DNA of 64,000 nt from the NCBI RefSeq assembly GCF_000241525.1, contig NZ_AHIL01000041.1:1-64000 (forward strand), read 5' to 3'. The stretch is from Comamonas testosteroni ATCC 11996 (lineage in GTDB: Bacteria; Pseudomonadota; Gammaproteobacteria; Burkholderiales; Burkholderiaceae_C). Shown piece by piece: positions 3,211-64,000 of the stretch (the first letter of the stretch is position 1; each line of letters opens with the position of its first letter). The position numbers and the translations under genes are program-made. The notes under the pieces are model-generated. The model saw nothing but the letters and a program-made list of their open reading frames with translations. It did no database searches and had not been told where the DNA came from.

Positions 3211-4086
3211 TTACAGCTCGGTGCGCAGACTCCAGATCTCGGGGAACAGCACCACGTCCAGCATCTTCTTGAGATAGCTCACACCGCCGGTGCCGCCTGT
3301 GCCGCGCTTGAAGCCGATGACGCGCTCCACCGTGGTCAGATGGCGAAAGCGCCAGAGACGGAAGGCATCCTCGATATCGGCCAGCTTTTCTCCCAGCTGG
3401 TACAGATCCCAGTGCTTGTGCGGGTCACGGTAGACGGTGATCCAGGCCTGTTTCACGCCCTCGCTGGCCTCATAGGGCTGGGTCCAGTCGCGCTGCAGAC
3501 GGTCGGCAGGAACCGCTATGCCTTCGCGGGCCAGCAGTTGCAGGGCCACGTCGTACAGCGATGGCGATTCGTAGGCAGCCTGTACCTGGGCCAGCAGGTC
3601 CGAGCGGTGGGCGTGGGGCTGGAGCATGGCCGCATTCTTGTTGCCCAGCGCAAACTCGATACAGCGGTACTGGTAGCTCTGAAAGCCGCTGGAGTTGGCC
3701 AGGTAGGGGCGCATGGCCGAGTACTCGGGCGGCGTCATGGTCGACAGCACGGTCCAGGCGCTGACCAGCTGCTCCATGATGCGCGAGACGCGAGCCAGCA
3801 TCTTGAAGGCATCGGGCTTGGTCTCGCCCGAGGCATTGGCAATGGCTGCCGTAGCCGCGCGCACCTCGTGCAGCATCAGCTTCATCCACAGCTCGCTGGT
3901 CTGGTGCTGCACGATGAACAGCATCTCGTCATGGGCAGGCGACAGCGGGTGCTGGGCCGTGAGAATCTGGTCCAGATGCAGATAGTCGCCATAGCTCATG
4001 TCACGGCTGAAGTCGAGCTGGGCTTTCTCGTCGTGGACGATGGCGGCGCCGCCATGCATAGGGCAGCCGGAGGATTCATTCGTCAT
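3211..4086 (-). CDS. kynA: Tryptophan 2,3-dioxygenase
   Basis: A 291-residue heme dioxygenase that opens the indole ring of L-tryptophan to N-formylkynurenine, the first step of the kynurenine pathway. Family hallmarks seen: the N-terminal block with [14 protein letters not shown], the central [13 protein letters not shown] region, and the C-terminal [21 protein letters not shown] block carrying the heme-ligand histidine. A longer upstream start exists, but the ATG at 4086 gives the usual N-terminus ([13 protein letters not shown]). The gene is divergent from the Ada-like gene. The later pathway genes kynU and kynB lie 4-6 kb away on the same strand, separated by unrelated genes. Confidence 0.96.
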
Positions 4087-5261: not shown

Positions 5262-6203
5262 ATGCTGCTTGAAGTCTCCATTGCCCTGCCCGCGCGTTAC
5301 CGCTTTGACGAATTCGTGCATTTCCATGATCGCGACGAACAGCAGCTGGCCGAGCGGGTCGATGCCGGTGCGCGCAGCCTGCACAAGGCCATCATGTGGC
5401 AGCGCAGCCCCGCCTTGCTGCAGCTGCAATGGCAGAGCGGACAGGTGCAGGCCAGCTTGGATGCGCCGCAGGCAGAGTCGGCTGCGGCAGACCGGGCTGC
5501 GCTGCAAGCGATGGTGAAACGCATGCTGGGGCTGATCTACGCGCCCGGCCAGCTGGAGCTGGCGCATGGCGACCACCCCGAGCTGGGCGCGCTGCTCTCG
5601 CGCCAGGCCGGCCTGCATGTGCCCGGCTCGCCTACGCCCTTCGAGGCGCTGACCTGGGCCATCACCGGCCAGCAGATCACGGTGGCCGTGGCCGTTTCGC
5701 TGCGGCGCAAGCTGATAGCGCTGGCGGGCGAGCTGATGGCGCAAGACGGGGGCATGCCGGCGCTGCACGCCTATCCCGATGCACCGCGCGTGGCGGCCTT
5801 GGGGCTGGACGCGCTGCGCGGCGCGGGCTTTTCCCAGGCCAAGGCCCAGACTCTGCTGGCCGTGGCCCAGGCCGTTGCCGACGATAGCCTGCCGCTGGAC
5901 GACTGGGCCGCCCGCAGCGCCGCCGGCCGTTGGGATGAGGAGGATGTGGCCGCTGCCTCGGCGCAATTGCTGGCGGTCAAGGGCATAGGGCCGTGGACGG
6001 TGAACTACACCTTGCTGCGCGGCTATGGCTGGCCCGACGGCAGCCTGCACGGGGATGTGGCGGTGCGCCGGGCCATCGGTCTGCTCACGGGCAGCGACAA
6101 GCCCGATGCGCGTGCCGCCAGCGACTGGCTGGAGCAGTTCAGGCCCTGGCGCGCACTGGTGGCCGCACACCTGTGGGCCTCGCTGGCCGACAGCGCCTAT
6201 TAG
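5262..6203 (+). CDS. alkA: DNA-3-methyladenine glycosylase II
   Basis: A 313-residue base-excision glycosylase of the HhH-GPD superfamily that removes 3-methyladenine and other alkylated bases. The helix-hairpin-helix (AVKGIGPWTVNYTLLRGYG) is followed about 15 residues later by the catalytic aspartate in SLHGDVAVRRAIG. The N-terminal AlkA-type domain (about 1-90) is present, including its phenylalanine-rich start. An upstream in-frame ATG at 5214 falls in the repeat-bearing leader; the ATG at 5262 gives the expected beginning, MLLEVSIALPARY. It follows the Ada-like gene on the same strand, separated by a palindromic element that may split or attenuate the unit. Confidence 0.92.
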   Translation: MLLEVSIALPARYRFDEFVHFHDRDEQQLAERVDAGARSLHKAIMWQRSPALLQLQWQSGQVQASLDAPQAESAAADRAALQAMVKRMLGLIYAPGQLELAHGDHPELGALLSRQAGLHVPGSPTPFEALTWAITGQQITVAVAVSLRRKLIALAGELMAQDGGMPALHAYPDAPRVAALGLDALRGAGFSQAKAQTLLAVAQAVADDSLPLDDWAARSAAGRWDEEDVAAASAQLLAVKGIGPWTVNYTLLRGYGWPDGSLHGDVAVRRAIGLLTGSDKPDARAASDWLEQFRPWRALVAAHLWASLADSAY

Positions 6204-6244
6204 CGCCTATTAACGCCTATTGAGAGGCGACAGGCGGCAGCGCT

Positions 6245-6817
6245 TCAGAGCGGCGACAGCACCAGCAGCAGCAGGCGTGCGGGCTGGCCCGAGGCATTGG
6301 CCAGCCGGTGCTCGCTGTCCACCACCAGCGTGGCCGTGTCGCCCGCGTGCAGCAGCACCTGCTCCTGGGCGGTGAAGACTTCGATGCTGCCTTCGAGCAC
6401 ATGAAAGACCTCGCGCGTGCCTGCGCGATGGGCCGCGAAATGGCTGGAGACTGCATGCGGCGGAAACCGGTAATGCACCAGGTTCACGCCCGCGCTGGGG
6501 CTGGCCAGGGCCAGGCGCTCCACGCCGCTGGCCTCGTCGACAAAGCGCAGATTCTCGCCGGCGCGCGTGATCTGCGCACTGGGCGCGCTTTGCACCAGCT
6601 CGCCCAGCTCGCAGCCCAGGCCTTGTGCGATCGCCATCGCATTGCGCAGGCTGGTGGCCAGCAGGCCGCGCTCCACGCGCGACAGCGCGCCCGGTGAGAC
6701 GCCGCTGGCCTGGGCCAGCTGATCCAGTGTGATGCCCAGCTGGGCGCGGCGTGCGCGGACGGCGGCGCCGAAAAGCGCATCGTGCTCCGATGCCTGCGAT
6801 GCGGTGGTGGAGTTCAA
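6245..6817 (-). CDS. XRE-cupin transcriptional regulator
   Basis: A 190-residue regulator with an N-terminal XRE-type helix-turn-helix (about residues 14-68, LDQLAQASGVSPGALSRVERG) and a C-terminal cupin sensor domain (about 110-185, including LEGSIEVFTAQEQVLLHAGDTATLV). Members of this group (PuuR/MmsR-like) usually bind a small metabolite in the cupin and repress adjacent transport or catabolic genes. It is divergent from the LctP-type permease with only about 90 bases between. That gap holds an inverted repeat overlapping a promoter, so control of the permease and of itself is likely. The ligand is unknown. Confidence 0.9.
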   Translation of the reverse strand: MNSTTASQASEHDALFGAAVRARRAQLGITLDQLAQASGVSPGALSRVERGLLATSLRNAMAIAQGLGCELGELVQSAPSAQITRAGENLRFVDEASGVERLALASPSAGVNLVHYRFPPHAVSSHFAAHRAGTREVFHVLEGSIEVFTAQEQVLLHAGDTATLVVDSEHRLANASGQPARLLLLVLSPL

Positions 6818-6850
6818 GCCTGGCTCCTTGTCATGGCGTCTGTTTTTGTG

Positions 6851-6892
6851 TTGAAAATTTTCCTATGAGAAAATAATTTTGCGTATAGGAAA
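6851..6892 (+). promoter_or_regulatory. Promoter with overlapping inverted repeat between XRE-cupin regulator and permease
   Basis: A TTGAAA -35 at 6851-6856 and ATAATT -10 at 6873-6878 (16-base spacer) face the permease. Inverted-repeat arms TTTCCTAT (6859-6866) and ATAGGAAA (6885-6892) straddle the -10 box and the expected start point. This is a likely operator for the divergent XRE-cupin regulator, by inference. Confidence 0.55.
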
Positions 6893-6914
6893 TTATTTTT
6901 CAAGGATGAATGCA

Positions 6915-8330
6915 ATGTACATGTTTATCAGTGCCTTGCCCGTGGCCACCGTCATCGCCGTTTTGCTGGCGGGCTGGCGCTCGCTGCATGCCGCAGCGCT
7001 GGGCGTGGCGGTGGCGCTGCTGGTGATTGCCGCAGCCTTTGCGCAGCCCGCTTCAACATGGCTGGCCGCCGGCATGCACTGGGCGCCGGTGCTGCTGGAA
7101 GTGCTGCTGATCGTGGGCGGCGGGCTGCTGCTGTCCGAGGTGCTGCGCGAGTTGGGAGCGCAGAAGGCCCTGGCCGACTGGCTGCTGGCCAGGGCCGGCA
7201 GCGGCACGGGCGCCGTGCTGCTGGTGGTGCATGGCATCACGCCGTTTGCCGAGTCGGTCACCGGCTTTGGCGTGGGCGTGACCATAGGCATACCGCTGCT
7301 CGCCCACTACGGGCTGCCGCCGCGCAAGGTGGTGCTCATCGGCCTGCTGGGCCTGTGCGCCGTGCCCTGGGGCTCCATGGGGCCGGGGACGCTGGTGGCG
7401 GCCACCATGGCCGGTCTGCCGTTCAAGGAGCTGGGTCAGGCTTCGGCGCTGGTCAGCGTGATTCCGTTTGTCATCACCGGCATGGCGGCGGCGGCTCTGG
7501 CGAGTGCGCCGGGCCGCCGGCGACAGGCCTTGTTGCAGGGCCTTCTGTCGGGTCTGTTGCTGACGGCGGCCGTGGCTCTGATGAATACCCTGGCCGGCAC
7601 GGCGCCAGCTGGGGCGCTCGGTGCCTTGCTGGTGGTGGGCTGGCATCTGCTGCGCCTGAGGCTGGGTGTGTCGCAAGCGGACGCGGACAAGCCGCCTCTG
7701 AGCGCGCCGGGGCGGCGTGCGCTGGCGGCCTATGCGCTGCTGCTGGGCGGTGTGCTGGCGGCCGCGGCGCTGCTGCGCGTCCTGGATCTGCCCGCCGTCT
7801 GGCATGGGCTGGCTTCACCGGGGCTGTGGCTGCTGGTGGCGGCGGTTTTTTTCACGCAGGGCCGGCCGGCGCGCCCATCGCTGGCAAAGGTCTGGCGCTC
7901 CTGGCTGCAGGTGGCACCGGTCACGGCGCTGTTCATTGTGCTGGGCGTGCTGATGGCGGTCTCGGGCATGGCCGCGCAGCTGGCGCAGGCGCTGGCCCGC
8001 AGCGGGCCGCTGTATCTGCTGGCCGCACCGTTTGTGGGCGCGCTGGGCGGTTTCGTGACCGGCTCCAATACCGGGGCCAATGCCATGTTCGCGGCCACGC
8101 AGGCCGAGATCGCCCAGGCGCTGGGCGCGCCGCTGCTGCCATTCATGGCCGTGCACAACGTCAGTGCCTCGCTGCTGCTCATGGCTTCGCCCGGCAAGGT
8201 GGAGATGGCGGTGCAACTGCTGACGCAAGGCGCTGCCCAGCGGCGCTGGGTGCAGCAAAGCGTGCTGATGCTGGCCCTGGCCGCCGTTGCGCTGATGGGT
8301 GTGCTCAATTGGAGCTGGGCGCGGGCCTGA
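6915..8330 (+). CDS. LctP-type (L-lactate permease family) transporter
   Basis: A 471-residue inner-membrane protein with about 12-13 hydrophobic segments. It has the conserved LctP blocks around GITPFAESVTGFGVGVTIG (near residue 110) and VTGSNTGANAMF in the C-terminal third. The family imports lactate or glycolate with protons. This one is shorter than typical LldP (about 550), so the substrate could be another 2-hydroxy or organic acid. Three in-frame ATGs occur (6906, 6915, 6921). AAGGA at 6902-6906 is spaced correctly for 6915 and overlaps 6906, so I chose 6915. Divergent from the XRE-cupin regulator. Confidence 0.85.
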   Translation: MYMFISALPVATVIAVLLAGWRSLHAAALGVAVALLVIAAAFAQPASTWLAAGMHWAPVLLEVLLIVGGGLLLSEVLRELGAQKALADWLLARAGSGTGAVLLVVHGITPFAESVTGFGVGVTIGIPLLAHYGLPPRKVVLIGLLGLCAVPWGSMGPGTLVAATMAGLPFKELGQASALVSVIPFVITGMAAAALASAPGRRRQALLQGLLSGLLLTAAVALMNTLAGTAPAGALGALLVVGWHLLRLRLGVSQADADKPPLSAPGRRALAAYALLLGGVLAAAALLRVLDLPAVWHGLASPGLWLLVAAVFFTQGRPARPSLAKVWRSWLQVAPVTALFIVLGVLMAVSGMAAQLAQALARSGPLYLLAAPFVGALGGFVTGSNTGANAMFAATQAEIAQALGAPLLPFMAVHNVSASLLLMASPGKVEMAVQLLTQGAAQRRWVQQSVLMLALAAVALMGVLNWSWARA

Positions 8331-58544: not shown

Positions 58545-59170
58545 TGTGGCTTGACTCAAGCCTGGGTTGCTCGGATTGACAGCTAATGATCTCGTTGACA
58601 GTACAAGCACAGTGATGCTCAAAAGGCATTTTTCAGAGAGAAATAACCCTGGTGGCCTGCTATGTGCTAAAGGATTGAAGCGAATGGATGCTTGCCAGAT
58701 GGGGCGATGCTGTCGGTGCCAGGCATGGCATTGCAAGATATAGGTCTGCACCAGATTGTGCAAAGTTATGCACAGCGACTGTGCAACGTCGAAAAGATGA
58801 GCGAGCAAGAGAGATCCTGCCTTATCCCTGCAAGGGAAAGGCATGCGGCTGTGGCGTAATTGATGCGCCGGCTTTTCGCGTGGAGAACGGAAGGCTGGAT
58901 GGAGCGAAGCTGCCTTCTCGGCTTGGGTATGTAGTGCCGGATCGGACCGGAACGCCCTGATTTGGGAATTTCACTTCCCAGCTCTCGCCCTAGAGGGATG
59001 CGGATTGTATTCGATATTCAGGCGCAAAAAAATGTCGCGGCTTTCCTTTGGGGGAAAACGCGTTGCGCCCACGATGTCGACATGGGGGACGCTGAGTCAC
59101 TTTGTCAGCACAGACTCTTCTTGGTGTCGCTATCAGTGCTGAGTGACTGCATATTTGCAGAGCAAAAATC

Positions 59171-59200
59171 AACAAGGGCGGGTTGAAGCCCGCCCTTGTT
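59171..59200 (-). terminator. Terminator after the three secreted-protein genes
   Basis: AACAAGGGCGGG and CCCGCCCTTGTT form a perfect 12-bp stem around a 6-base loop. On the minus strand it is followed by GATTTTTG and lies 60 bases past the last of the three minus-strand genes. Confidence 0.85.
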
Positions 59201-59258
59201 AGGTGAGTTGCGGTCAGCATCAATGGAGTGCTGCCCTCCTGTTATGCCTTTGATTAGC

Positions 59259-59591
59259 CTATTCGCTGGTAGGCACGAAAAACAGGTACTCACCTGGCCC
59301 CATCTGCGGGGTAATCACATAGCCTTCGCACTGCCTGTCCTTGCATTTCACAGGGATAGCGCGGGGCCATATCGTTGCAGCAGTCGGATAGCCAGGCAGG
59401 TACTGCGGCACATGCCAGACGCCATAGTCACCAACCGGCTCTGCTTGCTGCGAGCCTGCTGCACCTTGCTCGCCGCTTCCGAAGATCTGGCGCTGAATGC
59501 TCAACGGCTCGTTGATGGCCCTGGAGTCGGGTGCAGCCAAAGACGAAGCGCAGCATAGTGCAATCGCTAAAAGAGCTAGAGTCTTGCCCAT
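59259..59591 (-). CDS. Small secreted protein, unrecognised
   Basis: A 110-residue exported protein with a signal peptide (about residues 1-19, ending SLAA). No family recognised. The mature part contains a Gln/Gly-rich stretch (about 36-50), a Pro/Tyr/Trp-rich stretch (VWHVPQYLPGYPTAATIWPRA) and one cysteine pair (CKDRQC, near 82-87) that could form a disulfide. GAGGCCGC precedes the ATG. Last of three same-strand genes for secreted proteins, 30 bases from the next; probably one operon, closed by a perfect terminator. Confidence 0.75.
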   Translation of the reverse strand: MGKTLALLAIALCCASSLAAPDSRAINEPLSIQRQIFGSGEQGAAGSQQAEPVGDYGVWHVPQYLPGYPTAATIWPRAIPVKCKDRQCEGYVITPQMGPGEYLFFVPTSE

Positions 59592-59621
59592 AGCGGCCTC
59601 CTAGATTAGGAATCACGCCCA

Positions 59622-60362
59622 CTAATTGGGGTACAGCTGTGCTGTACGTGGGTCATCCATCACAGAGGTGACCGCCGATGGTCGAGTGACTTCAGGTGCC
59701 AAACCCGACTGAGCCTCTGAGGGGGACGCAGCAGGAGTTGGGCTACCTTGTGCCGAAGCATCCGGCCCGTAGTTGTTGCGGCGCTCATCAGCGGTCATGG
59801 ATTGCGGGCATTTAGAACCCGTGATCTCCAGTGCCACGCGAGCGGCAGGATCCATGCAGTCCATAGCCAGCGAGGCTGCCTTCATGCCCTTGTTCCAGAG
59901 CTCGCGGCTCATTTTCAGGCGTTTGCAATGCTCGTCCGTCCAGGTTGTACCGAAGCTCACGCCAAAGCCTGGGCCGTTGGCACTGCCGCTGCTGCTGCCC
60001 ATGCAGGTGTCATTGCTGGTCGTGAGGTTGGGGCCGTTCACGCTGGGAACGTTCTTCATGGTGTAAGTACCGGTGTACTCCACAATGTTCTTGGACGTCC
60101 CGGACACAGTGCTGTTCAAGTTCTGAGTGGTCGTGCCGTTCGTTGTGATGTTTTGATCGGACGTTGAAGTGGATCTGCTGTCCATCGTGGCGACAGATCG
60201 ACTCTCCGCCGGGGCAACGACCGGATTGACAATGGTGACCGACTGATTCTGTTGTGCCCCCACGGATGAGGAGCTAGAGGAGCTTTGCGCGCTGCTGTCG
60301 GCACTTTGCGCATAACTGCACAAAGGAACGCAAAGACTTAACAGAGCTATTGAGAATTTCAT
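59622..60362 (-). CDS. Secreted Ser/Thr/Asn-rich protein with a Cys-containing domain
   Basis: A 246-residue exported protein. Signal peptide to about residue 19 (CSYAQ), then a poly-Ser tract and a long Ser/Thr/Asn/Gln-rich region (about 20-95). A compact domain follows (about 100-190) with NDTCMGSSSGS, FGTTWTDEHCKRLKMSRELWNKGMKAA and AMDCMDPAARVALEITGSKC, four cysteines likely in disulfides, and a Pro/Ala/Ser tail. I do not recognise a named family; from memory, similar small domains occur in secreted or phage-like proteins of other Proteobacteria. Middle gene of three, 31 bases upstream of the small secreted protein. Confidence 0.75.
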   Translation of the reverse strand: MKFSIALLSLCVPLCSYAQSADSSAQSSSSSSSVGAQQNQSVTIVNPVVAPAESRSVATMDSRSTSTSDQNITTNGTTTQNLNSTVSGTSKNIVEYTGTYTMKNVPSVNGPNLTTSNDTCMGSSSGSANGPGFGVSFGTTWTDEHCKRLKMSRELWNKGMKAASLAMDCMDPAARVALEITGSKCPQSMTADERRNNYGPDASAQGSPTPAASPSEAQSGLAPEVTRPSAVTSVMDDPRTAQLYPN

Positions 60363-60438
60363 GCTTTGCTCCTATGTTGCCCGAGCCCGGCCAGGCAGCC
60401 AGACCCGGGACACACACAACTATCTTGGGACAGCTGCC

Positions 60439-61122
60439 TTAGTTGGCATTGGCAGTAGAGCCTGCACCAGCAAGACCGGAGGTGCCACCACCATTGGAGA
60501 AGTAGCCGGCGTTACCCCAGGAACCCGCATTCTGGTGGACGGTACCCACAGAGCCTGCGTTCGATGTGGTGTTGGTCAATGAGCCCCAAGGTGAGGAAAC
60601 GGCTCCCGATGTGGCGTTGTAGCCAGAGGTGGTGCCAGCATTGTTGTTGATGTAAGCCAAGCCGCCGCCAGGGCCGGCGCCAGTTGCAGCAACATTCGCT
60701 GTCTGGGAAGAGGCGCCGCCGAAGGCAGTGCCGCTGACGGGTCCTGCGTTATAGCCGGCAGCAGCAGCCGAGCCCGCATTGGCATTGGTAGCCGCTACGC
60801 CGCCCGCAACACCGTTGCCGGAGGTTGCGGAAAGGCTCTTCACATTACCGAAAGTAGTGGCGCTACCGTCGACAGCGGCCCCACCGATGCCAAAACCGCC
60901 TGCGCCGATAGCGCCGCCAGCAGCGTTTGCATTCGACGTGGCACCGGAGGTTGCACTATTCATGCTCAGCGCACTTCCGTTGCCCGAGCTGGCAGCACCC
61001 GACAGCGTGGCAGACGATGCGCTCGACGTCGTGTTTGTGGCTGCAATGCTTGAACTGCTCACTGCAGCAGATGCAACACCAGCCAACGCAATAACCGCCA
61101 TGGCAATCAGAGACTTTTTCAT
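60439..61122 (-). CDS. Secreted Ala/Ser/Gly/Asn-rich low-complexity protein
   Basis: A 227-residue exported protein. Signal peptide residues 1-20 (MKKSLIAMAVIALAGVASAA). The mature chain is almost only Ala, Gly, Ser, Asn and Thr, has no cysteine and few charges, with loosely repeated NAG/SAG/GxNA units (for example NANAGSAAAAGYNAGPVSG). This composition suits a secreted fibre, amyloid-like or adhesive subunit; that is inference. AAAGGA with correct spacing selects the ATG at 61122 over one six bases earlier. First of three secreted-protein genes, facing a divergent LuxR-type regulator across a 517-base AT-rich gap. Confidence 0.8.
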   Translation of the reverse strand: MKKSLIAMAVIALAGVASAAVSSSSIAATNTTSSASSATLSGAASSGNGSALSMNSATSGATSNANAAGGAIGAGGFGIGGAAVDGSATTFGNVKSLSATSGNGVAGGVAATNANAGSAAAAGYNAGPVSGTAFGGASSQTANVAATGAGPGGGLAYINNNAGTTSGYNATSGAVSSPWGSLTNTTSNAGSVGTVHQNAGSWGNAGYFSNGGGTSGLAGAGSTANAN

Positions 61123-61639
61123 GATCATTCCTTTGAATAGCGAGTTCCCAGATAACTGAGAGTGTGTGAGCGAGAGACCGATGCAATTTCGCAAAGGCCA
61201 GTGTTAACCGTCAACAAGTTCTGGAGTGCTTTGTTACGTTCCAAAACTGCTTTCGGTGAAGGCAGTTTCAGAAAACGACGGAGAAACAGTAATACCCCAT
61301 TCAAAGATATTTTTTGAAGAATTTAAAATGATGAAAAAATGATTAATTTGTTATGGTCTGTGGATGATGTGCTATTGAAAAAATAGTGCTTGTTGGAAAA
61401 TTCTTACAATGCTAAAAAATGTAATCTTTATTTCTTTTTATTTTATCTGCCCATTGTTTCAAAAATAAAGGGTTTACATCTATTTTGCGATGGAGATAAG
61501 TTAATACCTTGTATTCAAGTATTAATTTGTAAAAATATAAACCTTATTTTTCTATACTTGTTTTTTGTGGATTTCCAATGGGATGAATTTTATTTTTCGC
61601 GAGATTCGCAAGCAATCGACTCATCAAATGGAGTGTCAC
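61123..61639. promoter_or_regulatory. AT-rich divergent control region
   Basis: A 517-base gap between the low-complexity secreted protein gene and the response regulator gene. From about 61290 to 61640 it is strikingly AT-rich, with long A and T runs, unlike every other intergenic region here except the window start. It is a likely target for H-NS-type silencing. No single promoter can be picked out among many TATAAT-like matches. Confidence 0.6.
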
Positions 61640-62407
61640 ATGTATCTATCCGACGCATCTATGAGTTCACGGTTTGATGATGCAGGCAGTGCAGAAGTCA
61701 CATCTACAGTCTTTGGGCGCATGTGGCCGTCCGACATGAAGGGGCAGCAGAACCAGCCGGTGCGAGTCTTTCTGGTTGACGAGGACAGCCATGTCAGGAA
61801 TGTGATCTCGCAGGAGCTCATGCGTGACCCGCGCACTCTTCTGGTAGGGCAGGCTTCCAGCTACAAGGAGGCTCGTAAGAACGTCTTTTTGCAAGAGTTC
61901 GATGTGCTCCTCATTGACCTGTCTATTGGTGAAGGCCAGGGAGACGAGTTGCTGGAATCGATCCAACTAAAGAGGCCTGACGTGCTCAGCATTGCAATTT
62001 CTGCAAGTGAAAACGACGATGCGGCAATGAATGCTCTTAAAAGAGGCGCTGTTGGATACCTGGTGAAAAACTCATGGTTTGGAAGTTACTCGCAAGCTGT
62101 GCTGGAAGTGGCCAATGGCGGAGCGGCTATATCTCCAGTAGTGGCAAAAAAAATCATTCCTAAAATATTCAAAGCCAATTTGCATGAAGAAAGCATCCTC
62201 AAACACAAGAGCTTCGAGTCGCTGACTGAAAGAGAAGTGGAAATATTGAAATTGATAGCTCAAGGAAAAAGCTCTCTCGAGGTTGCGTCCTACTTGAAAA
62301 TAAGCCCTTTGACTGTGTCAACGCATATAAAAAATATTTATGGAAAAATGCAAGTAAGAACCAGAGCGCAAGCTGTCAGGTGTGCAATCCTGATAGGAGT
62401 TATTTGA
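61640..62407 (+). CDS. LuxR/NarL-family response regulator
   Basis: A 255-residue two-domain regulator. After a 40-residue N-terminal extension, a receiver domain runs about 42-160: the acidic pair is in FLVDEDSH, the phospho-acceptor aspartate in DVLLIDLSIGEG, the lysine in GAVGYLVKNSW. The C-terminal LuxR helix-turn-helix spans about 190-250 (LTEREVEILKLIAQGKSSLEVASYLKISPLTVSTHIKNIYGKM). No sensor kinase is adjacent. GGAG six bases before the ATG at 61640 selects this start over several others. Codons are AT-rich, especially in the C-terminal half, unlike the rest of the window. Likely regulator of the divergent secreted-protein genes. Confidence 0.88.
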   Translation: MYLSDASMSSRFDDAGSAEVTSTVFGRMWPSDMKGQQNQPVRVFLVDEDSHVRNVISQELMRDPRTLLVGQASSYKEARKNVFLQEFDVLLIDLSIGEGQGDELLESIQLKRPDVLSIAISASENDDAAMNALKRGAVGYLVKNSWFGSYSQAVLEVANGGAAISPVVAKKIIPKIFKANLHEESILKHKSFESLTEREVEILKLIAQGKSSLEVASYLKISPLTVSTHIKNIYGKMQVRTRAQAVRCAILIGVI

Positions 62408-63015: not shown

Positions 63016-63369
63016 AGGCCCGAAGATCTCAAGCTGATTTCGGTCAACGAGATCGTGGCCAAGGATGATTTCAGTGTGATCAGGAAAGCCCGCGAGGCCA
63101 ATGTGCTGGCCGCGTATCCCGTCCCGTCCGGATTGCAGGGCATCATCCCCAACATCACGGGCAGACTTGGCAATGCCAGCCAATCCCTGGATGTTTTCTA
63201 CAAGAATGAGGTTACCCCGTTGCAAGAGCTGTGCGAGACATTCAAAGAGTGGGCGGGATGGGGTATTGTGAGGTGGCTTTCTTATGAGGCAAATTCGAGC
63301 TGGCCACTGCACTCTATTCAGCGGTACTGGGAGGGGGAGTCAGGGAATGGGGGTACCACTCCGAAATGA
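63016..63369 (+). pseudogene. 3' fragment of a P2-like phage portal protein gene
   Basis: The frame reads EDLKLISVNEIVAKDDFSVI, then EANVLAAYPVPSGLQGIIPN, LGNASQSLDVFYKNEVTPLQ and GWGIVRW. This is the C-terminal third of the PBSX/P2 gpQ portal family, whose members have AAKDEF, DVLAAHRVPPQLMGIIP and NEIIPLQ at the same places. The upstream two thirds are missing and no other phage structural gene remains. The end overlaps the 3' end of the opposing deoxyribosyltransferase-like gene. Confidence 0.8.
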
Positions 63370-64000
63370 CCGATGCTGCGTGTGCATGTGCTGATCGCCA
63401 GAGGTCGTTCTGGCTGGAGCCAGGATGGTCTGGTAGTTCGATGTGTCTATCAGCAGCCCGAATAGCGAACCAAATGCCATGGTCCCAGTCCTTGTCTCGT
63501 CGCTGCTTCTTAAGGCCTGGTGCCGTAATCACGACGACTCTCTTATTGCCCGCTCTTGCATAGCCGATTTCAACCAGCGTTCCAAAAGCCTCCAGGTCTT
63601 CGAGATAGGCGACAACAACGTCGGCCCGTGAGATGCCTTGAAGAGCTCCGCGATAGGCAGCGCTTTGCGGGCTGGAGGGAGAGTAAGAATTCGTGCCATG
63701 CATCGGTCCATGGTTGCCATTTCTCGCTTTCCACGGACCGGAATACATGAACCTCGTACAAGTTCCGTGAAATAGCATTTCTTCCGGCGGTGCAATCAGC
63801 ACATCGGTATCTGAATTCTCGATCCCTAGATCACCAAGTGCCTTGGATCTGGATACGTCGAAGATTCGCCAACAGGAAAACTCTCCGCCCAGGTTCCCAT
63901 TGTCTGAAGCTGCCCCCATTTTTCCCGCCATGTAGACGACAGGTAGAACCAGGTTCGCTTGGCGAGTTGCCCTGCTCGCCTGCAGCCAGCTTTCGACATC
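63314..64000 (-). CDS. Nucleoside 2-deoxyribosyltransferase-like protein, 5' end outside the window
   Basis: At least 228 residues; the frame is open to the window edge, so the true start may lie outside. Motifs of the nucleoside deoxyribosyltransferase superfamily are seen: VVYMAGKMG near the N-terminal end of what is visible; a middle ISRADVVVAYLEDLEAFGTLVEIGYARAGNKRVVVIT, with the conserved glutamate of the GTLVEIGYA motif; and WFAIRAADRHI. The inserted Asn/Gly-rich stretch is unusual. Enzymes of this fold exchange or cleave the base of nucleosides and recur in phage-related and defence loci. It lies head-on to a phage portal remnant, suggesting an island. Confidence 0.75.
   Translation of the reverse strand, partial: DVESWLQASRATRQANLVLPVVYMAGKMGAASDNGNLGGEFSCWRIFDVSRSKALGDLGIENSDTDVLIAPPEEMLFHGTCTRFMYSGPWKARNGNHGPMHGTNSYSPSSPQSAAYRGALQGISRADVVVAYLEDLEAFGTLVEIGYARAGNKRVVVITAPGLKKQRRDKDWDHGIWFAIRAADRHIELPDHPGSSQNDLWRSAHAHAASVISEWYPHSLTPPPSTAE

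Follow-up and report, generated by a model that had tools for sequence, protein, structure and literature searches.

Curli loci combine a small secreted subunit, a second subunit and an accessory protein with a LuxR-family regulator on the opposite strand. We analyzed a locus with a comparable layout in Comamonas testosteroni ATCC 11996, within the first 64,000 nucleotides of contig NZ_AHIL01000041.1 (this whole stretch is called the window). It comprises three same-strand genes, A, B and C, whose products carry signal peptides as judged from sequence alone, and a divergent response regulator gene, R. Our preferred reading, to which we give a probability of roughly 0.4, is that its products form an exported beta-assembly of two subunits under a regulator of their own.

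The likeness to curli lies in a small secreted low-complexity subunit of predicted beta structure, a second subunit, an accessory protein and an opposite-strand LuxR-family regulator. In contrast to curli, the genome gives no match to CsgG (PF03783), no Csg family is matched over its cut-off, the regulator is of the receiver type, and the units are multiple and dispersed. The four-cysteine domain of B is not known from curli. A sequence-only reading of the locus had compared it to fibre or amyloid systems: the conservation pattern of A and its beta model make a fibre system plausible, but membership of curli was rejected, with no CsgG in the genome and no curlin repeat family over cut-off for A, B or C. 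Working like a fibre system need not mean belonging to one.

Curli genes have been reported in phages too, and the accessible text of three papers proposes superinfection defence, sibling capture or lysis timing as roles of pelagiphage curli (PMC9599517, PMC7029224, PMC9004378). HTVC023P, given in the accessible text of PMC9599517 as the type phage of one pelagiphage group with curli-like gene clusters, carries a B protein. Both cases concern envelope- or amyloid-type secreted proteins of marine phages, but B is not part of a recognizable CsgG system there: PF03783 was absent from the four B-bearing phage records searched, and B was rejected as a CsgG-linked pelagiphage protein.

Two further families come close to single components. 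PHROG 20531 contains the B domain, whereas the N- and C-terminal parts of Comamonas B are particular to it, and its gene lies in a bacterial operon with a regulator. NarL/FixJ-type response regulators share with R the receiver and the GerE helix-turn-helix (HTH), but the R locus has no visible kinase gene and R stays below the listed NCBIfam cut-offs. In the open-licence literature, judged by titles and abstract openings, we recognized no description of the module; PMC5192318, as far as its accessible text goes, concerns another operon.

Composition, conservation and predicted structure of A, B and C

Mature A consists of 81% Gly, Ala, Ser, Thr and Asn, with two charged residues and no cysteine. 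Among the 178 mechanically called open reading frames (ORFs) of at least 100 aa in the window, it ranks first in the share of these five residues, and the runner-up reaches 62%. Fourteen A sequences from Comamonas and Variovorax can be aligned with few gaps, and their conservation alternates along the chain: the autocorrelation at lags 1 to 6 is -0.16, +0.46, -0.30, +0.31, -0.21 and +0.33, with a z of 6.7 at lag 2. At lag 2 the controls C, R and full-length B are positive as well (z 3.2, 4.1 and 9.5, respectively), but their lags 1 and 3 are positive too, so that the alternation of sign is absent. The hydropathy of A does not follow the two-residue period of its conservation.

The AlphaFold model of A, built from the 14 sequences, reached a mean predicted local distance difference test (pLDDT) score of 80.9 and a predicted template-modelling (pTM) score of 0.67. 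Beyond the signal peptide it is almost all strand (E27-44, 49-74, 77-102, 105-126, 129-177 and 180-226). Four viral models matched it at E < 0.001, all without names. The model supports long beta-strands with no named fold, and together with the conservation pattern it predicts a beta-structured subunit. At another Comamonas place (L038, positions 6166-8324; L and G numbers are our handles for places and genomes), three tandem A genes, two of them with identical products, stand ahead of a single B and C. A profile search with A in six genomes found no A beyond the B-bearing places.

Mature B has four cysteines, at aa 120-185, and the domain that holds them is almost frozen. Over 108 codons, the window copy and L028 differ by 26 synonymous codons and no amino acid; the amino-acid and synonymous differences from the window copy are 3 and 44 in L036, 11 and 36 in L038, and 9 and 39 in L039. 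The flanks of the domain vary much more, and the domain itself is under very strong purifying selection. In the N-terminal part of Comamonas B (L036, L038) we observed short V/M/I-D-S-R-S repeats, whose copy number differs among species.

An alignment of the B domain spans Herminiimonas, Collimonas, Burkholderia, Novosphingobium and diverse phages; its invariant residues are Pro, four Cys, Gly and Asp. The family features –cysteine spacing and the Pro, Gly and Asp columns– were found in alignments of 14 and 17 sequences, the fourth cysteine of L182 being unaligned in the latter. The representatives came from the 87 of 106 loci with a B match that had the exact cysteine spacing; the other 19 included L062-L066, two of which were added by hand to the 17-sequence alignment. 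Against PHROGs, the window B gave one clear match, phrog_20531 (function unknown), at E 3.6e-14, and the same family was matched by JWDelta (full-length, 9.5e-154), HTVC023P (2.8e-18) and phiAxp-2 (1.4e-5). The Novosphingobium B protein ends in an OmpA domain (E 1.5e-17), a hint of envelope anchoring. No solved structure matched the B sequence.

Mature C has one cysteine pair, C83 and C88, invariant in the nine aligned sequences. We compared it to the small secreted protein adjoining Burkholderia B and found no support for homology. None of A, B and C matched a Pfam or NCBIfam family over its cut-off or any PADLOC entry. For R, both the receiver (PF00072) and the GerE HTH (PF00196) exceeded the Pfam cut-off, whereas none of the 25 NCBIfam models listed, out of 81 matched, was reached at its own cut-off.

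Recurrence, dispersal and concerted evolution of the unit

B was matched 23 times in 11 genomes of a 61-genome draw. All matches except one, which lies in another family of the order, were in 10 of the 37 Comamonas genomes, the window's own included. A adjoins B at each of the 22 Comamonas places, R is present at 15 and C at 15 (at L051 the contig stops before C would be visible), and five of the ten genomes carry two or three full R-A-B-C units each. Six places (L022, L026, L029, L032, L035 and L054) have A' and B without R and C. L039 keeps A, B and C; R was not found there, and a DDE transposase lies at 6395-7327 on the R side.

The R-A-B-C set is also present in Comamonas terrae, Comamonas suwonensis, one Comamonas metagenome-assembled genome and Variovorax. 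Five of five Variovorax contigs have R, A and B, and four have C, the fifth contig ending first; a sixth record (L076, Variovorax paradoxus, CP063167) has the four genes in the same order. L076 has a further response regulator resembling R (43% identity) immediately after C (7235-7909), and two related regulators thus flank the unit. At L021 (14079-17855), the second unit of its genome lies near a large filamentous-haemagglutinin repeat protein (PF13332). Beyond R, many Comamonas units have a further gene, N (57-93% identity), partial in L025 and split into two frames in L021; it was not found in L024, L027, L028 and L033.

Chance does not account for the arrangement, which recurs at many places in different surroundings. 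The expectation that the trio and its regulator recur as a unit was borne out in Comamonas and Variovorax, but A and B alone make up the conserved core, and this pair is also present at places that lack R and C. Homologues without the regulator had been named as evidence against an undescribed surface or matrix system, as had membership of unrelated, well-characterized families: the former do exist for B, and no family of the latter kind was found.

At paralogous places, the similarity is mostly confined to about 3.3 kb, from the terminator to R, plus gene N in many. R falls into three locus-specific clades, which A, B and C do not follow. In the 11 units of the five genomes with two or more full units (the other 11 Comamonas places stand outside this comparison), the nearest relative is a paralogue of the same genome for 1 R, 5 A, 6 B and 5 C, with label-shuffle p values of 0.72, 0.032, 0.013 and 0.035, respectively. 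The two copies of G029 share 99% of A and C and 81% of R; in the window's genome (G000), the window copy and the second copy share 99% of C and 85% of R. Although the statistics are modest, this pattern suggests gene conversion of A, B and C while the regulators diverge.

The gap between R and A measures 517-531 bases in the 11 units, with a guanine-cytosine (GC) content of 0.32-0.34 and several conserved blocks, the strongest near A. It fits an operator region for R together with the promoter of A, and the blocks are candidate sites.

The features of the locus are collected in Table 1. The layout described by the sequence-only reading was confirmed: three minus-strand genes with signal peptides, a cysteine-free chain followed by a four-cysteine protein and one with a single cysteine pair, and an AT-rich LuxR-type regulator facing them over the gap (R has 47% GC, A-B-C 59% and the window 62%). 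The terminator is indeed perfect, with arms at 59171-59182 and 59189-59200 followed by a minus-strand T run. A tRNA-Leu lies near the window copy, past the window end.

Table 1. Positions of the genes and regulatory features in the window
Feature	Position	Strand	Description
Gene A	60439-61122	-	227 aa, Sec-type signal peptide, Cys-free Gly/Ala/Ser/Thr/Asn chain; predicted beta-structured subunit
Gene B	59622-60362	-	246 aa, signal peptide, Ser/Thr/Asn/Gln-rich stretch, conserved four-Cys domain (about aa 88-195), variable tail
Gene C	59259-59591	-	110 aa, signal peptide, compact domain, one conserved Cys pair
Gene R	61640-62407	+	255 aa response regulator, receiver domain and LuxR/GerE HTH, divergent from A
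R-A intergenic region	61123-61639		517 bp, GC 0.33; blocks conserved in 11 Comamonas units; candidate operator region
A-proximal conserved block of the R-A gap	61196-61247	-	minus-strand reading GTTTTGGAAcGTAAC...GACGGTTAA...GGCC; coordinates hand-counted
Short inverted repeat CTATT-N5-AATAG in the R-A gap	61372-61386		repeat-like with base differences in the other aligned units; coordinates hand-counted
Intrinsic terminator after C	59170-59201	-	12/12 perfect arms
Gene N	63314-64000, on to contig position 64165	-	283 aa; AlpA-type HTH in fusion with a nucleoside deoxyribosyltransferase-like domain

The B domain in other bacteria and in phages

The B-domain profile matched at least 8 of 399 genomes of the order and at least 6 of 349 of the phylum, and an earlier B profile at least 2 of 369 of the class, with no more than 12 or 13 candidates scored per genome. 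We examined 14 bacterial places outside Comamonadaceae (L040, L062-L066, L077-L079, L094-L097 and L099). By eye and composition, an A-like secreted protein adjoins B at 13 of them, two in Burkholderia; in L094 and in phage JWDelta, a Gly-rich stretch lies within B itself. No orthologue of R or C was found at these 14 places, with weak hits only: R at 24-28% identity in L077, L078 and L099, and C at E 0.006 in L099.

In phages, the B domain is present in pelagiphages, Roseobacter phages, JWDelta/JWAlpha and the Achromobacter phages phiAxp-2, 2-1, AXY1 and ART. Pairs of an A-like protein and B were seen in phiAxp-2, ART and the viral records L072/L180, L181 (a prophage of L096) and L182; 2-1 and AXY1 were not inspected for the pair. 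Five A-like proteins of phages and bacteria (L095 and L181-L184, picked as alignable) have a lag-2 autocorrelation of +0.29 (z 3.4), with negative lags 1, 3 and 5, and so display the two-residue alternation independently of A. In L181 (583-3404), a reverse transcriptase gene (PF00078) lies just upstream of the A-like/B pair, and short similar stretches are repeated in the ORFs near it; these look like a putative diversity-generating retroelement.

A scan of IMG/VR with the HTVC023P protein gave 93 related places, of which 80 were kept. In six of the eight marine viral representatives with usable flank, B has a lysozyme, endolysin or amidase family no more than about 2 kb away (L144, L146, L152, L155, L157 and L162; none was seen in the partly scanned L137 and L173, and L100 and L149 have no flank). 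At four of these six loci, two genes precede B, one for a large secreted protein and one for a small protein with a single apparent membrane segment. In the Roseobacter phage CRP-810 (L080), B is near a gene annotated as lysozyme. Beside this B, a small lipoprotein-like ORF (3561-3821) apparently repeats C2-C3-C4 of the four-Cys domain, and before it stands an 80-aa protein that appears to have one membrane segment; by eye, the two resemble a spanin pair.

The complete unit is present on sequences called viral as well. Six IMG/VR contigs with that call carry it, five as R-A-B-C and one cut within B; the seventh match of the scan, L072, is a phage-like contig from a metagenome and has just an A-like gene and B. 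At the genome place L024, as in L186, similar prophage sequence with an endolysin precedes the unit; the unit of L187 stands between virion or tail genes and an integrase, and in L185 an integrase lies several kilobases away. A translated ORF suggested a tRNA next to the unit in L068/L187, but a search found none. No phage structural or lysis family was found among the ten neighbours of L021, L025, L028, L031, L034 and the window copy (L046), with L023, L027, L030 and L033 unscanned; the matches of these neighbours were PHROGs of unknown function, some of them plainly host genes (LysR, TonB receptors), along with two transposases and a single repressor-like hit. Some of the units thus sit on prophages, with no such position seen for the window copy. 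The purely bacterial framing of the sequence-only reading needs revising, since the B domain is widely carried by phages and some units stand at prophage ends.

Weighing the readings and proposed mechanism

Several observations weigh against an exported beta-assembly. A Foldseek search of the A model against the PDB gave 29 matches at E <= 0.001, all of them long hairpins of pore-forming proteins, with TM scores of at most 0.38 and a root-mean-square deviation (rmsd) of 29-43 A. Superposition was poor for all, and hence no specific fold was identified for A; homology with the hairpins was not accepted because of the very high rmsd, and the beta prediction itself could possibly be a spurious product of low-complexity sequence. 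The AlphaFold model of the B domain had a pLDDT of 48 and gave no usable fold. We recognized no outer-membrane pore gene in the locus and no CsgG in the genome (other pores were unsearched), which leaves export past the periplasm without a visible route and agrees with the earlier statement that neither a secretion pore nor known subunits are recognizable. Sequence homology of A with the phage A-like proteins was rejected, as no profile match extended beyond the signal peptide; their kinship would therefore rest on position, composition and pattern. In marine podophages, B is near endolysin genes and a large secreted protein, not beside an A, a context suggesting that the domain acts in lysis or in the envelope. 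Finally, the comparison of mean distances within and between genomes was not significant for A (p 0.070; B 0.015, C 0.012, R 0.31).

A rather unlikely alternative is that the module is a phage-derived lysogenic-conversion (moron) module, in which A and B block superinfection by coating or plugging the envelope of the cell, be it lysogenic or infected, and R is a later chromosomal regulator. The spread of the B domain and of A-like/B pairs among the phages named above agrees with it, as do the unit's positions near prophage endolysin, tail or virion genes (L024, L186, L187) and integrases (L185, L187), the linked AlpA-type gene N, and the role in superinfection defence that the accessible text of PMC9599517 proposes for phage curli. 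However, L185-L187 are a biased sample because they were chosen as viral calls of IMG/VR, and the six scanned neighbourhoods described above, the window's included, hold no phage structural or lysis family. Moreover, the A'-B-only place has long flanking synteny in five genomes (L022, L026, L029, L032 and L035), which indicates a long-resident pair, and the absence of PADLOC matches for A, B and C also argues against a defensive module.

It is unlikely that B is a periplasmic or outer-membrane protein for lysis or envelope remodelling with A as its periplasmic partner, so that the bacterial pair alters the envelope and makes no extracellular material. The lysis genes close to marine viral B and the lysozyme of CRP-810 are what such a role would predict, but in phiAxp-2 and ART the pair lies among genes without lysis annotation. 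A response regulator, multiple copies and the apparent concerted evolution of the bacterial units would be surprising for a lysis function, and the pattern of A fits a structural chain.

A curli- or Fap-type amyloid with its pore elsewhere in the genome is very improbable: despite the layout of subunit, second subunit, accessory and LuxR-type regulator, and an R match to the CsgD model over the HTH region (E 5e-13, 49 bits, far under the cut-off of 250), CsgG was found in neither the window's genome nor G018, both with several units, and in only 2 of the 12 B-bearing records (Comamonas G021 and Herminiimonas G435, with nearness to B shown in neither), compared to 4 of 14 control genomes, E. 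coli among them, and no curlin, CsgE/CsgF or Fap family was matched over cut-off by A, B or C in Pfam/NCBIfam (FapF and genome-wide CsgE/CsgF were unsearched).

Under the preferred reading of an exported two-subunit beta-assembly, R would sense a signal through its receiver domain, act on the conserved sites of the gap and drive A-B-C. The three products would reach the periplasm by Sec. A would be the main building chain: almost uncharged, cysteine-free, with successive long beta-strands and one conserved face, and suited to stacking as sheets or fibrils. B would be its partner, whose flexible Ser/Thr/Asn-rich part joins or seeds the assembly of A and whose four-Cys domain, presumably disulfide-bonded, may fix B to the envelope, as suggested by the peptidoglycan-binding type of the OmpA domain in the Novosphingobium protein. 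C would be a small assisting disulfide protein, and C and R probably were additions in Comamonadaceae.

Gene conversion may keep the A-B-C sets alike within a genome while the regulators diverge; matched sets under diverging regulators suggest that one material is made under different cues. The module would also be exchanged with phages, which may employ B, with or without A, as an envelope protein while infecting a cell. In this scheme we infer export across the outer membrane, polymerisation, anchoring, disulfides, sensing, the direction of exchange and the use of the product, either as a matrix or as a phage-shielding coat.

A broader proposal, which we consider doubtful, is that A and B are the first known members of a class of exported beta-chain materials distinct from curli and Fap, without a dedicated pore in the operon and moving between bacteria and phages: bacteria would keep several converted copies under diverging regulators, and lytic and temperate phages would produce a pair of this kind to alter the envelope of the infected cell.

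The module may thus represent a candidate surface or envelope material, so far undescribed, that both bacteria and their phages use. If true, it would be a protein-based surface or matrix material outside the family libraries searched, it would offer a function for PHROG 20531, a phage family without an assigned one, and it would connect surface genes of bacteria with envelope genes of phages. The A/B pair, which is small, lends itself to direct testing in laboratory strains.

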